The notes beneath the pieces are model-generated. The model worked only from the letters and a program-made list of their open reading frames with translations. It was not told where the DNA came from and ran no database searches. Below, in pieces: positions 1 through 7,907 of a stretch of DNA of 7,907 nt. The stretch spans positions 1 to 7,907 of the forward strand of contig JAKAPB010000069.1 in the NCBI GenBank assembly GCA_021823045.1. Reading direction: 5' to 3'. Origin of the DNA: Actinomycetes bacterium. Lineage in GTDB: Bacteria > Actinomycetota > Acidimicrobiia > Acidimicrobiales > Acidimicrobiaceae. Within the stretch, counting starts at the first letter, position 1; every line of letters begins with the position of its first letter. A program made the translations under genes and the position numbers.

Positions 1-182
1 AGGGCACCCTCTTCTGTTGGGATCCCGGTACGGCGGTCTATAAGGATGAAACCGACCTCTGCTTCGAGTTTTGAAAGGTGGGTTGATACGTTGGATTGAA
101 CCGTTCCTAGGGCAGCTGCGGCGGTGGAGAAGCCCCCGTAGTCCATTACCGCGACCATCGAACGCAATTGTCGAATATCCAT
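1..182 (-). CDS. LysR-family transcriptional regulator, N-terminal fragment
   Basis: Only the first 60 codons lie in the window; the C-terminus runs off the left edge. The translation starts MDIRQLRSMVAVMDYGGFST and continues with AAAALGTVQSNVSTHLSKLE, then GFILIDRRTGIPTEEG. This is the classic LysR winged helix-turn-helix: an initial helix, the F-S-x-A-A recognition region, an S-N-V-S-x-H-L-x-K-L-E helix, and the wing ending T-x-E-G. The ATG at 182 is preceded by AGGGG with a 4-nt spacer, a plausible ribosome binding site. The gene diverges from the 6C RNA and murT. LysR proteins normally regulate themselves and a neighbouring or divergent gene through a C-terminal ligand-binding domain, which is not visible here, so no ligand or target can be proposed. 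The family call is firm. Confidence 0.9.
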   Translation of the reverse strand, partial: MDIRQLRSMVAVMDYGGFSTAAAALGTVQSNVSTHLSKLEAEVGFILIDRRTGIPTEEGA

Positions 183-191
183 TTGTCCCCT

Positions 192-208
192 TATCTAATT
201 AACAGATA
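192..208. promoter_or_regulatory. Candidate LysR operator (T-N11-A dyad) upstream of the LysR gene
   Basis: TATCTAATTAACAGATA is a dyad with perfect 5-bp arms (TATCT/AGATA) around a 7-bp AT-rich centre. It contains the T-N11-A core (T at 194, A at 206) typical of LysR-type operators. It sits 9 nt upstream of the LysR start codon, where autoregulatory sites of this family are usual. The dyad is seen directly; binding by this regulator is inferred. Confidence 0.5.
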
Positions 209-252
209 GAGAATATCGCACCATAGGTGGAAACTCGCGCTCAGATTCCGAC

Positions 253-258
253 GATAAT
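253..258 (+). promoter_or_regulatory. Candidate -10 element for the 6C RNA
   Basis: GATAAT matches the TATAAT consensus at 5 of 6 positions. It lies 7 nt before position 265, just ahead of the first stem of the 6C RNA at 268. No convincing TTGACA-like -35 is visible at normal spacing, although GGAAAC occurs at 229-234. The placement is suggestive, but the element rests on one hexamer. Confidence 0.35.
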
Positions 259-264
259 GGTTAA

Positions 265-360
265 CAGCAGATTGAATTCCCCCCTCAATCTGGACATTTC
301 GAAGGAGTTGGCATCCCCCCCGCCAACTCCTTCGTGTTTAACGGTAAAGTTTCTTTTTTT
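265..360 (+). ncRNA. 6C: 6C small RNA (two C-loop hairpins)
   Basis: Two hairpins follow each other closely. The first has a perfect 8-bp stem (CAGATTGA at 268-275 with TCAATCTG at 285-292) closing the 9-nt loop ATTCCCCCC. The second has a perfect 13-bp stem (CGAAGGAGTTGGC at 300-312 with GCCAACTCCTTCG at 322-334) closing the 9-nt loop ATCCCCCCC. The stems are unrelated in sequence, but the loops are nearly identical and carry six and seven cytosines. This is the defining pattern of the actinobacterial 6C RNA, a trans-acting small RNA family whose C-rich loops are thought to pair with G-rich mRNA sites. A U-rich tract at 350-360 probably marks the 3' end, giving about 95 nt. The tract is separated from the second stem by 15 nt, so it is not a textbook terminator. 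The 5' end is inferred from the -10-like hexamer. The strand follows from C-rich rather than G-rich loops. Confidence 0.88.
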
Positions 361-460: not shown

Positions 461-1843
461 ATGCTTGAGGCGGATGCGATGTCTGATACTGAAATCCGAA
501 AATCTGTCTGGTCTGCTTCCCAAAGGTTGATCAGAAAGCGGCTGGCCCTTCTAGTGGCTCGAGCTTCTGTTCGAGCCCTGCGTTTTTTTAAGCTTGGCCA
601 GGGTCAGTCGCTCCCTGGCAAGATTGCATTGAGGATTGACCCCGAGATCCTCTCTGAACTCGTGAGAACCATCGACGTCGTGTTGGTCAGCGGAACTAAC
701 GGAAAGACCACCACTACGGCTCTCCTGGCGTCGGGACTAGAGCGGTCGGGGCTCACCGTCACCAATGCCGGGGGTTCGAACATGACCGGCGGAGTTGTTT
801 CGGCGCTCATTAGTGGTCTTCGTTCGCACACACGGGCAAGCTTTGCCGCTCTTGAGGTCGACGAGATCTACTTGACGCCGGTGGCTAGGGCCGTAAAACC
901 AAAGGCGATTATTCTGCTGAATCTGTCTCGGGATCAGCTAGATAGGACGCAGGAGGTAAGGAAAATTGCGAGAAGGTGGAAGTCGCTGTTAAGCGAGCTC
1001 CCAGAAGTAAAAGTGGTTGCAAACGCCGACGACCCGTTGATCGTATTTGCCGCTTCGGAGGTTTCAGACGTTACTTGGGTGGCGGGGGGAATTTCCTGGA
1101 CAGAGGATTCTTCTGGCTGCCCCGTCTGTACTGGGCGCATCACATTTTCCGGGGGTAGTTGGCAGTGCAACTGTGGCTTTCAAAGGCCAGAGGTTACCTG
1201 GTTTCTGAGTGGCGATTCGGTAGTCACCTCGCCAGCGGGGAATATCGCTCTAGAGCTAAATATCCCCGGCTCGTTCAATGTCCGAAATTCATTGATGGCC
1301 CTTGCTGGGTGCGCCTGCGTCGGAGTTGAGGCGGAAATAGCGGAGAACGGTATGACAGGGGTCGTTTCGGTAAGTGGGAGATTTCAGACCTATTCGCTTC
1401 CAGGAACCGACGGTAGCGTCATGTTGACACTCGCAAAGAATCCCGCAGGGTGGGTCGAGCTCATAGCTATGGTCGATTCCTGGATGAAAGACCGGGCAAT
1501 TGTTATTGGACTCAATGCAAAGTTCGCCGATGGGAAAGACCCCTCCTGGATCTGGGACGTGCCATTTGAGATCTTTAGGGGGCATGCGGTCGTTGTCTGC
1601 GGAGAGAGAGCCACTGATATGGCACTCCGGCTGCGCTATGCCGAGGCTGAGGCTTTAGTTGTTCCCGATCCCTATTCTGCGATTGTCGTGGCTTCAAAGA
1701 GAAAGGCAGACGTCGTCGTACTTGCCAATTACACCTGTTTTCAAAGGGCACGCAAGGACCTCGAGACAAGCGGCTCCACTGCTCGGATTGTCAGGGCTCT
1801 TTTTGGTATTGGTGGATTTTTGTCTATAGGGGGCAGAATTTGA
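461..1843 (+). CDS. murT: Lipid II isoglutaminyl synthase, Mur ligase-like subunit MurT
   Basis: MurT works with GatD to amidate the alpha-carboxyl of D-Glu in the lipid II stem peptide, giving D-isoglutamine; MurT activates the carboxyl with ATP. The 460-residue length is normal. Visible elements in order: the ATP-binding P-loop SGTNGKTTTT (77-86); LEVDE (131-135) and NLSRDQLDR (154-162) of the Mur ligase central domain; a Cys4 zinc ribbon inserted in that domain (C220, C223, C236, C238, spaced CxxC...CxC); SFNVRN (271-276); and the C-terminal DUF1727 domain with LAKNPAGW (324-331) and ADGKDPSWIWDV (356-367). An Asp of the last segment is expected to complete the GatD active site, as in the S. 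aureus complex; I cannot say which. An alternative start at 479 (MSDTEIRK) has GAGG at 466-469 with a 9-nt spacer, whereas the 461 ATG has no clear ribosome binding site, so 479 may be the true start. The stop overlaps the gatD start. Confidence 0.93.
   Translation: MLEADAMSDTEIRKSVWSASQRLIRKRLALLVARASVRALRFFKLGQGQSLPGKIALRIDPEILSELVRTIDVVLVSGTNGKTTTTALLASGLERSGLTVTNAGGSNMTGGVVSALISGLRSHTRASFAALEVDEIYLTPVARAVKPKAIILLNLSRDQLDRTQEVRKIARRWKSLLSELPEVKVVANADDPLIVFAASEVSDVTWVAGGISWTEDSSGCPVCTGRITFSGGSWQCNCGFQRPEVTWFLSGDSVVTSPAGNIALELNIPGSFNVRNSLMALAGCACVGVEAEIAENGMTGVVSVSGRFQTYSLPGTDGSVMLTLAKNPAGWVELIAMVDSWMKDRAIVIGLNAKFADGKDPSWIWDVPFEIFRGHAVVVCGERATDMALRLRYAEAEALVVPDPYSAIVVASKRKADVVVLANYTCFQRARKDLETSGSTARIVRALFGIGGFLSIGGRI
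1828..1842 (+). promoter_or_regulatory. Ribosome binding site and TTG start of gatD
   Basis: AGGGGG at 1828-1833 lies 6 nt before the TTG at 1840-1842. The TTG overlaps the murT stop codon in the sequence TTGA. This placement, together with the protein's good N-terminus (a short lead into a glutamine-amidotransferase strand), favours TTG as the start. The 4-nt overlap suggests translational coupling, giving matched amounts of the two subunits. Confidence 0.7.
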
Positions 1844-2619
1844 GCGATGCAGTCTCGATCGTGACAGTTTTTCCTGACCTTTTGGGTACCTATGGTGATG
1901 GTGGCAATGCAAAAGTTCTTGCTGCCAGGCTGAAGCTCAGGGGTATCGCCGTAAATAACCTGGAGGTTCGATCGTCCGATCCGCTTCCTCAAGGTGCCGA
2001 TATCTATTTGGTGGGTGGAGGAGAAGATTCCCCACAAGTCGAGGCTTCTAAGATTCTGGGAAGATCGAGGGTTTTGCACCGTGCTGTCGAAGCTGGGTCC
2101 TACGTGTTGGCGGTCTGTGCTGGACTGCAAATTTTTGGAGAATACTTCGTAGATTCCGAAGGCGACCAGGTTCCGGGTTTGGGTATTCTCGATTGCTGGT
2201 CAGTCAAGATGTCAGGGGCTAGGGCGGTGGGCGAGCTCCTCGTCAGTGCAGAGCTTAACGGAGGAGAAGATCTCCTTGTGGGTTACGAAAATCATGGCAG
2301 TTCTACACATTTGGGTCCCGATGCTCGGCCGTTTTCCAAAGTGGTAGTCGGTGTCGGAAATTCGAGGATTGCTAAGGCGGACGGAGTTCGCTACAAAAAT
2401 GTCATAGCAACTTATATGCACGGACCGGTTTTGGCCAGAAACAGCGAACTTGCCGACTATATACTTCGTGGAGTATTGGGTGAACTGCCCACTCTTCCGG
2501 ATCGCCAACTCTCGAGATTGGCTAGACAACTACATCAGGAGAGGGTCAGTGCTGCCTTGAAGTCCCACAAGCCGAATCTCCGCAACAGGATCGTGCTGGG
2601 TCTGAGAGGCCACAAGTGA
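1840..2619 (+). CDS. gatD: Lipid II isoglutaminyl synthase, glutaminase subunit GatD
   Basis: GatD is the class I glutamine amidotransferase that releases ammonia from glutamine and passes it to MurT for amidation of lipid II in the cytoplasm. The 259 residues fit the family, with a slightly long basic C-terminal tail. The fold markers are VTVFPDLLGTYGDGGNA (8-24), YLVGGGEDSPQ (56-66), the nucleophile elbow AVCAGLQIFG with Cys93 (91-100), GYENHGS (148-154), and TYMHGPVLARN with His194 (191-201). Cys and His here match the catalytic pair of the CobB/CobQ-like amidotransferases. Arg128 lies in the region where S. aureus GatD has a functionally important Arg128. The third catalytic residue of the usual triad is supplied by MurT in the known complex. 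The TTG start overlaps the murT stop by 4 nt, so the two genes form one translationally coupled operon ending at the terminator at 2671-2716. Confidence 0.94.
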   Translation: MSDAVSIVTVFPDLLGTYGDGGNAKVLAARLKLRGIAVNNLEVRSSDPLPQGADIYLVGGGEDSPQVEASKILGRSRVLHRAVEAGSYVLAVCAGLQIFGEYFVDSEGDQVPGLGILDCWSVKMSGARAVGELLVSAELNGGEDLLVGYENHGSSTHLGPDARPFSKVVVGVGNSRIAKADGVRYKNVIATYMHGPVLARNSELADYILRGVLGELPTLPDRQLSRLARQLHQERVSAALKSHKPNLRNRIVLGLRGHK

Positions 2620-6780: not shown

Positions 6781-7907
6781 TCAATGTACGTTGGCCATTA
6801 GTAGCGGTGGTGAGTGGAGGTGGGTGACTGATGGATCCCTGCCCACTACCGAAGAAGCGATTTCGAGGGCATCCGCCATAGTTGAGGCGCTTTGATAACC
6901 CAATCGTCGTGTAGTTTTTGGGTCGCCGCCCAAGATTATGACCCCACCGAGGTGGTCGAGGGCGTGTGCGCCCCAGTACCACATGTAAAAGGGATGTACG
7001 CCATGATATGCGTGCCCGTGACGATAGAGGTGGATGTACCACGGGTCGGTAGCGAAGCGCTCTTCAAACCTTTTTTCGATTACCAAAGGATCGGTTGACT
7101 CCGGCAGGACTTGGTCGAAGAAGTCGATGTAGCTCGGGTGGAAAGTGGGGTCAAACTCGGGACGAGTTGGGTGGGAGAGTATTACTACGCCACCCTTTCG
7201 GACGAGCGGTGCTCCTTTGTACATGTTAAAGAAGTACCCGAGTCCGAGGCAGTGGACCAGAATTGGATTCATGATCGAATTCACGTTGTATGGGCCGATA
7301 AACGGCAGGCCGATGGTCAGTATGTCGGTCTGGCCAGCCACGTCCACCTGCTGCTGCCTATAGACGTTTTCCAGAGTCTTCTTATGAACTGCCTCGACCT
7401 CGCCTGAGTGCACCCCGGTCAACCCGTAGGGAGATTTGACGTTTTGGAAGATTTTTCTCGCCGCCCATGGTGGTGTCAACTTCAGCGACTCTGAAACTGC
7501 GAGGAAGCTGGCCCTATCCTTTAGCCCCCACTCCCACTCCCTCTTTTGCAAGAAGGAGAATTGCGATGGGAAAGTATTGGTGTTGAGGGTGGTTTCGATC
7601 TGATAGATTTTGATTCCGCTATCTTTGATCAACTTTCCCATTCGCCAATTTGAGCTATGTAGCTCTGAGTTGTCACGATCCATGAATGATTTTGAATGAA
7701 CCATAGTCTTGACGTTGTGGTGGTGGCGAAGGGAGCGATAGCTTGCGAGACCGGTGGCAACCGACTTGTGTCCCCCGTCCATTGAAACCAGATTTATGTT
7801 GACGTAGATAATTAGGTCTGAAGTGGCGGCATACTTGTTTAGCTCAACCTCTTCACCCTGCTCGGTCTTACCGATAAATAGCAGATTGTCTCTGTCTTCG
7901 GCGTCGT
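6781..7907 (-). CDS. LarA-like (DUF2088, nickel-dependent racemase family) protein, N-terminally cut by the window
   Basis: The frame is open from the stop at 6781 to the right edge, giving at least 375 codons. An internal ATG at 7782 is not the start, because the frame continues upstream with conserved-looking sequence (LLFIGKTEQGEE, then DLIIYVNINLVSMDGGHKSV). LarA enzymes racemise 2-hydroxyacids using a nickel-pincer nucleotide bound to a lysine. Counting from M at 7782, DGGHKSVATG places Lys6 where LarA has its cofactor lysine (Lys184 in L. plantarum). His22, in RHHH, falls 16 residues later, as His200 does. The residue 10 before the lysine, His174 in LarA, is here Ile in VNINLVS. A His/aromatic-rich stretch RHGHAYHGVHPFYMWYWGAH lies near 250-270. 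The family call is strong, but lactate racemization is not supported. No larB, larC or larE is in the window. It is co-transcribed with the acyltransferase. Confidence 0.82.
   Translation of the reverse strand, partial: DAEDRDNLLFIGKTEQGEEVELNKYAATSDLIIYVNINLVSMDGGHKSVATGLASYRSLRHHHNVKTMVHSKSFMDRDNSELHSSNWRMGKLIKDSGIKIYQIETTLNTNTFPSQFSFLQKREWEWGLKDRASFLAVSESLKLTPPWAARKIFQNVKSPYGLTGVHSGEVEAVHKKTLENVYRQQQVDVAGQTDILTIGLPFIGPYNVNSIMNPILVHCLGLGYFFNMYKGAPLVRKGGVVILSHPTRPEFDPTFHPSYIDFFDQVLPESTDPLVIEKRFEERFATDPWYIHLYRHGHAYHGVHPFYMWYWGAHALDHLGGVIILGGDPKTTRRLGYQSASTMADALEIASSVVGRDPSVTHLHSPPLLMANVH

Follow-up and report, generated by a model that had tools for sequence, protein, structure and literature searches.

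The left end of a 7,907-nucleotide stretch of DNA from an Acidimicrobiaceae-like genome (the window) holds a LysR-type regulator gene on the minus strand and murT on the plus strand, and the 278-bp gap between their starts contains two adjacent hairpins with runs of C in their loops. Which kind of RNA do these hairpins belong to, and what controls it? The sequence-only reading of this locus had assigned positions 265-360 to the actinobacterial 6C RNA, an assignment to which we return below. Its coordinates cover the RNA, and its description of two neighboring perfect hairpins (8 and 13 bp) with C-loops, beside LysR and murT in such a genome, was borne out on the plus strand. The functional unit likely begins upstream of position 265, at a LysR-type box at position 205 (Table 1).

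Table 1 Coordinates of the genes and predicted elements in the window.
Feature	Position	Strand	Remarks
LysR-type regulator gene, start	1-182	-	translation MDIRQLRSMVAVMDYGG...; cut by the window edge; divergent from the RNA
LysR-type box GATAGAGAATATC (GATA-N5-TATC)	205-217		predicted LysR binding site
-10-like hexamer GATAAT, RNA promoter	253-258	+	48 bp from box start; kept in relatives
Predicted small RNA, ~80 nt	265-345	+	fold z-score -6.15; kept in 37/42 family genomes; ends inferred
Hairpin 1, 8-bp perfect stem	268-292	+	C-loop 276-284 = ATTCCCCCC
Hairpin 2, 13-bp perfect stem, probable terminator	300-334	+	C-loop 313-321 = ATCCCCCCC; 13/13 pairs covary
murT	461-1843	+	Mur_ligase_M and MurT_C (Pfam); downstream neighbor, outside the RNA
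gatD, murT partner gene	1840-2619	+	GATase_3 (Pfam)

The full-length LysR homologue at L002:832-1749 carries HTH_1 and LysR_substrate domains (Pfam). A MurT search returned close relatives at 89 and 88% identity (two MAGs), 76 and 74% (two) and 58% (one); these five closest relatives are labelled Acidimicrobiaceae or Actinomycetes, and all five carry two hairpins at the same position. Window positions 180-360 gave no match when compared with plasmid records. At the right edge of the window, a minus-strand frame (6781-7782) showed a weak match, below cut-off, to Lar_N, the lactate racemase N-terminal domain.

The region folds into an unusually stable structure, with -36.9 kcal/mol for 255-365 (z-score -5.70) and -33.3 kcal/mol for 265-345 (z-score in Table 1), and none of 200 shuffles was equally stable in either case. 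As a background, 220,800 strand-bases of locus flanks away from the RNA contained 19 single C-loop hairpins (stem of at least 7) and 2 pairs of them within 40 nt, which means that such pairs are rare, yet not unheard of.

A model built from six sequences was run on the 42 genomes of the family to which G002 belongs; full-length matches at E≤0.01 were obtained in 37 of them, and any match at E≤1 in 39. We then collected 43 loci with two C-loops, including the window and omitting places where a model match came without a locus or without two C-loop hairpins. Their hairpin-2 stems fall into 27 distinct sequences that differ between clades, whereas the loops retain runs of five to nine C, in agreement with the earlier proposal that the C-loops are kept on unrelated stems. 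Setting aside L041 and seven close duplicates among the 43, we aligned the remaining 35 loci by sequence alone and found changes on both sides in all 13 pairs of hairpin 2, so that the compensatory changes that had been named as a check on the RNA are indeed present in related genomes. Cells with both-side changes numbered 91 against 26.5 in shuffles; further pair types showed no excess in the same 35 loci (22 against 24.9). Paired cells amounted to 95.0%, compared with 79.2% in shuffles and 29-55% when the strands were slid by one to three columns, full pairing being partly due to construction, since loci were extracted only with a hairpin 2 of 10 bp or more. The aligned covariation count covers hairpin 2; hairpin 1, to which our first model (R1) fitted poorly, was assessed by folding each locus, and its C-run was found by eye to lie in a loop in all of the other 42 loci. 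Comparison of the loci thus shows kept C-loops on a conserved fold, and the element is almost certainly a real conserved structured RNA.

Could the element instead be two ordinary terminator hairpins, with C-runs that arose by chance or as an assembly artefact? Hairpin 2 alone does resemble common terminators, and matches to a single-hairpin model are frequent, but the covariation, the recurrence in many independent assemblies, and the strand bias and fixed promoter spacing described below make this explanation extremely improbable.

The conserved RNA resembles 6C (RF01066) in having a pair of neighboring hairpins, each with a loop of about six C and the second of them terminator-like, and in being a small free-standing RNA. 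However, an Rfam search of the window gave no gathering match to 6C. When 84 bases were searched, the RF01066 model aligned over its full length and matched both hairpins in register, but its score of 21.8 bits lay under the cut-off of 47. Six of 20 relatives were listed at E≤5, with 23.4-33.5 bits. No match was obtained at E≤10 in G001-G005 and G007 (in G003 and G004 only some of the candidates were scored), all of which carry the RNA or a one-hairpin relative. The cut-off was passed in none of 198 genomes of the class, 27 of which had a match at E≤1, with at most 22 candidates scored per genome. These failures are weak evidence alone, because a control, the 6C of Corynebacterium glutamicum that is reported as such in excerpts of PMC4046766, also stayed below cut-off. 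The covariance-model search that the sequence-only reading had proposed therefore gave no gathering match for the window or for the control, and 6C membership was not supported by the score of the window, nor by its neighborhood.

Indeed, the differences from 6C are not limited to score. The stems of our RNA have no evident sequence in common with those of 6C. Mycobacterial 6C lies near Ms1, generally with one gene between them, according to the available part of PMC9569102, whereas our RNA adjoins lysR and either murT or a HAD/acyltransferase gene; Ms1 was not found in the window by Rfam, and the canonical 6C neighborhood is absent. Some of the relatives have three loops, and a putative box for the LysR protein stands at a fixed distance from the RNA. 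By Rfam score the RNA is not a 6C, while its design would be expected to work like that of 6C/B11.

That the RNA is a divergent but true 6C orthologue, moved next to lysR in this class, is in our view somewhat doubtful. The full-length alignment in register and the scores of the six relatives speak for such descent, as does the HAD-IB domain protein encoded downstream in some relatives, since the canonical 6C of L016 (Actinopolyspora, 67.6 bits) also adjoins a HAD-IB gene. Against it, all RF01066 scores lie under 47, and our model R2 finds nothing in L016 or anywhere else in that genome. The HAD part matches the neighbor of 6C in the L016 genome (1.1e-22) no better than it matches a paralogue there (2.2e-22), and because of this tie the HAD gene was not taken to prove descent from 6C; moreover, the HAD gene in L016 is on the other strand, and our RNA has no Ms1 beside it. 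Finally, FsrA (RF02273), an unrelated C-rich RNA, scores higher, at 27.4 bits. Descent from 6C would in any case be compatible with a LysR-controlled C-loop mechanism.

FsrA itself is a Bacillus RNA tied to iron. Like our RNA it is small and C-rich, and its model aligns with hairpin 2 and part of the C-run, yet the score is far from its cut-off of 80 and the RNA has no iron context. In L016, we also observed an Ms1 match at 1-223 on the minus strand (40.2 bits, cut-off 162), and the HAD gene is located between it and the 6C, an arrangement published for mycobacteria in the portion of PMC9569102 at hand. A two-C-loop RNA in genome G177 (L020, 1506-1585, minus strand) reached 46.2 bits by the 6C model, just under the cut-off, and has no LysR box; the LysR gene of this genome lies elsewhere and has neither hairpins nor box. 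In the open-access papers searched, we found nothing linking 6C RNA with Acidimicrobi-, and nothing joining Acidimicrobi-, small RNA and LysR; the accessible part of PMC2864571 does not mention 6C.

The sequence-only reading had named LysR as a neighbor and overlooked its link to the RNA. Including the window, 37 of the 43 loci (36 of the other 42) have a homologue of this LysR encoded divergently from the RNA. The six without an adjacent LysR are L034, L037, L038, L041, L051 and L057; in L038, the RNA lies between the genes for acetoacetate-CoA ligase and malic enzyme. By eye, L034 and L057 resemble L038, in that the C-loop RNA precedes a malic-enzyme gene and has no LysR beside it, and the -35 and -10 elements of all three appear strong. 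Model R2 contributed another 22 loci, of which 21 had LysR. Its overall matches, 94 of 247 in one search and 16 of 41 in another, are not counts of the RNA, because those near E 0.1 include lone terminators. In the large genome searches, between 11 and 22 candidates were scored for each genome, so that absences are to be read as lower bounds.

To avoid circularity, we also started from the LysR protein alone. It had a match at 1e-30 or better in 99 of the 198 class genomes, and all 99 divergent regions were examined, divided into 50 closer homologues (at least 39% identity) and 49 more distant ones. Beside the closer homologues, at least one C-loop hairpin was present on the divergent strand in 44 of 50 regions (6.9 in shuffles), at least two in 30 (0.59 in shuffles) and at least three in 7, while the opposite strand had a C-loop hairpin in one region. 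C-runs of at least five outnumbered G-runs of that length by 108 to 5 in these 50 regions. Beside the distant homologues, 30 of 49 regions had at least one C-loop hairpin, against 7.7 in shuffles and 5 on the opposite strand; the two-hairpin form is not established there, because it occurred in only 2 of 49 (0.73 in shuffles). In a sample of the phylum, the LysR was found in 23 of 296 genomes, all of which were already part of the class sample. Comparison of these loci shows that the RNA is linked to one LysR gene.

The region between LysR and the RNA contains a conserved box. A GAT-N7-ATC motif was found in 42 of the 50 closer regions (2.3 in shuffles) and 40 of the 49 distant ones (2.4 in shuffles), and the strict GATA-N5-TATC form in 28 and 1, respectively. 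The box is in register with the predicted RNA promoter: among the 43 loci, box and -10-like hexamer lie 47-50 bp apart in 34 of the 37 LysR-adjacent RNAs and in 0 of the other 6, one of which has the box without the hexamer. When the regions were instead collected from LysR, a -10-like hexamer stood 47-50 bp away from 39 of the 89 boxes, compared with 0-6 in each of eight other 4-nt windows; a small peak, 8 loci, was seen at the single offset of 31. Hairpins and box also occur together. The two-by-two counts were 42/2/0/6 for the closer homologues (Fisher 1.8e-6), where all six LysR genes without hairpins lack the box as well; the counts of 30/0/17/2 for the distant homologues were not significant (p 0.15), and over all 99 the link had a p of 0.0002. 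Among these six closer LysR genes, that of G201 belongs to a genome with two RNA copies elsewhere, and in G118 and G083 the next gene starts by eye ~75 and ~110 bp from lysR, which leaves little space for the RNA.

Neither a good -35 for the RNA promoter in the window nor a sigma-70-type site in a consensus promoter scan of positions 1-700 was found, which fits an activator-dependent promoter without being proof of one. A centre near -54 is a suitable position for the site of a LysR activator. At the level of sequence, the locus has a divergent LysR gene and, ahead of the RNA promoter, a LysR-type site, and it is very likely that the LysR protein controls the RNA. In this respect, the locus resembles GcvA-GcvB and OxyR-OxyS of enteric bacteria, in which the LysR-type gene adjoins, diverges from and controls a small RNA, although the RNAs are unrelated and the control of our RNA is predicted.

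It has to be considered whether the box serves only lysR autoregulation, the RNA being constitutive or driven by other factors. The box lies 11-30 bp from the lysR start in many closer homologues, and autoregulatory sites are common at such a distance. However, its spacing is fixed with respect to the -10 of the RNA and variable with respect to lysR (2-57 bp in closer and 24-177 bp in distant homologues), and those closer lysR genes that have no hairpins beside them have no box either, in six out of six cases. Autoregulation alone is thus unlikely, and control of the RNA by LysR remains the reading that we favor.

The LysR protein itself appears generic, with CynR as its best NCBIfam match (124 bits, cut-off 277). 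OxyR-type redox sensing was considered and rejected: among 17 aligned LysR proteins (those caught by the motif out of 30, the other 13 being dropped), no cysteine column reached 30%, which makes a sensor of this type unlikely.

Since the RNA lies upstream of murT and in the same direction in the window and in many relatives, it might alternatively act in cis, as a leader or attenuator of the murT-gatD operon. However, the gene downstream of the RNA differs between genomes. For the 38 closer LysR loci with flanks, murT was within reach in 11, a HAD-IB/acyltransferase gene in 21, both in 1 and neither in 7; in L107 and L109, a HAD/acyltransferase gene is followed by murT. This variable neighbor argues for a free RNA rather than a murT leader. 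In addition, murT starts 127 nt past hairpin 2, with a block between them that looks promoter-like and conserved by eye. We therefore consider a cis-acting leader to be very improbable. Control of either murT or gatD in cis was rejected on account of the variable neighbor and because the G-run before gatD in the window is missing from four relatives. The block in question, a TAGGCT-like sequence at ~427-440 shortly before murT, is kept in close relatives and may be a separate murT promoter, as judged by eye.

The earlier proposal of a masked ribosome-binding site in stem 2 was not supported. The sequence GAAGGAG is present in the left arm (301-307), yet there is no start codon at a useful distance from it, because the C-loop comes next. 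As its letters also differ in many members, we rejected this candidate.

As to termination, the T-tract after hairpin 2 is weak in the window (TGTTTAACGG), and a terminator scan detected none at the RNA. In the LysR-first regions whose last hairpin is strong (58 regions), the mean is 3.8 T per 12 nt, and 18 of the 58 have at least 5.

We infer from the comparison of these loci a stand-alone, trans-acting small RNA of ~80 nt, which would be transcribed from its own promoter and ended by hairpin 2. The divergent LysR-type protein would bind the GATA-N5-TATC box, which lies ~54 bp ahead of the RNA start, and, in response to a small molecule, would activate the RNA, repression being the less likely direction of control. 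The RNA would present two C-runs, or three in some relatives, in its hairpin loops, and free C-runs held on stems are suited to pairing with G-runs. By pairing with G-rich stretches at the ribosome-binding sites of several mRNAs, the loops could block translation. Such pairing has precedents: either C-loop of B11 pairs with a G-tract in the eccB4 leader, on the evidence of compensatory changes described in excerpts of PMC10470900, and the terminator C-loop in M. marinum binds G-tracts beside ribosome-binding sites, as stated in the available part of PMC12395582. The scan for G-rich ribosome-binding sites proposed in the sequence-only reading was carried out and brought no clear excess, GAGGGGG-N2-8-ATG occurring at 110 places in four genomes against 84 for the reversed pattern, and the action on targets is thus drawn by analogy. 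By this analogy, the RNA probably acts in trans on G-rich ribosome-binding sites. The reading as a whole, a LysR-controlled C-loop small RNA that blocks such sites, spread over the class and sometimes three-looped, also seems probable.

From the 110 places, 30 loci and 12 further stretches were inspected. By eye, and as leads only, a G-rich start recurs among the closest relatives before an apparent enoyl-CoA hydratase in G001 and G002 and before an apparent sugar ABC-transporter ATPase in G001-G003.

The length of the C-run varies from 6 to 9 C among close relatives (window 268-334, L001 2313-2380, L002, L003 and L005). These differences are possibly assembly errors. They could also matter, because in M. 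abscessus single-base changes in such C-runs lead to a partial loss of B11 function, as reported in portions of PMC10470900.

The design of the C-loop RNA is already known from 6C/B11, and what appears to be new is the link of such an RNA to a LysR regulator. The RNAs may represent an undescribed class-wide family in which two or three C-loop hairpins are present and a single dedicated LysR-type sensor is usually in control. Like 6C, they would block G-rich ribosome-binding sites globally, with their input via LysR, and would either have arisen independently of 6C or have kept a regulator link lost by 6C elsewhere; we find the arguments for and against this broader view to be evenly balanced. 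Such RNAs escape family models because their stems change fully, while the C-runs, the promoter spacing and the regulator stay. In mycobacteria, 6C/B11 affects growth, secretion and surface lipids, and to our knowledge little is known about what turns on C-loop RNAs. With a constantly spaced box that links an RNA of 6C design to a single LysR gene, the question of the switch becomes directly testable via the LysR ligand, and the three-loop forms, like those LysR genes that lack both hairpins and box, offer natural experiments.

We also noted several deviating arrangements of the RNA. Two nearby copies are found in G201 (contig 15, near 153905 and 155641), away from the LysR gene of this genome, and two copies lie close together on contig 36 of G239. 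In an AT-rich Acidimicrobiales MAG, a single C6 hairpin with an 11-bp stem (L011, 1561-1589) is located upstream of murT and adjoins, by eye, an apparent divergent LysR start; model R2 matches it as hairpin 2 with 20.8 bits. Three consecutive C-loop hairpins were seen in the LysR-first regions L154, L155, L157, L158, L168, L172 and L182, and likewise in L112, L116, L123 and L124. Some of the loops in these three-hairpin forms are exactly CCCCC, and the forms are mostly positioned upstream of a HAD-IB/acyltransferase gene.
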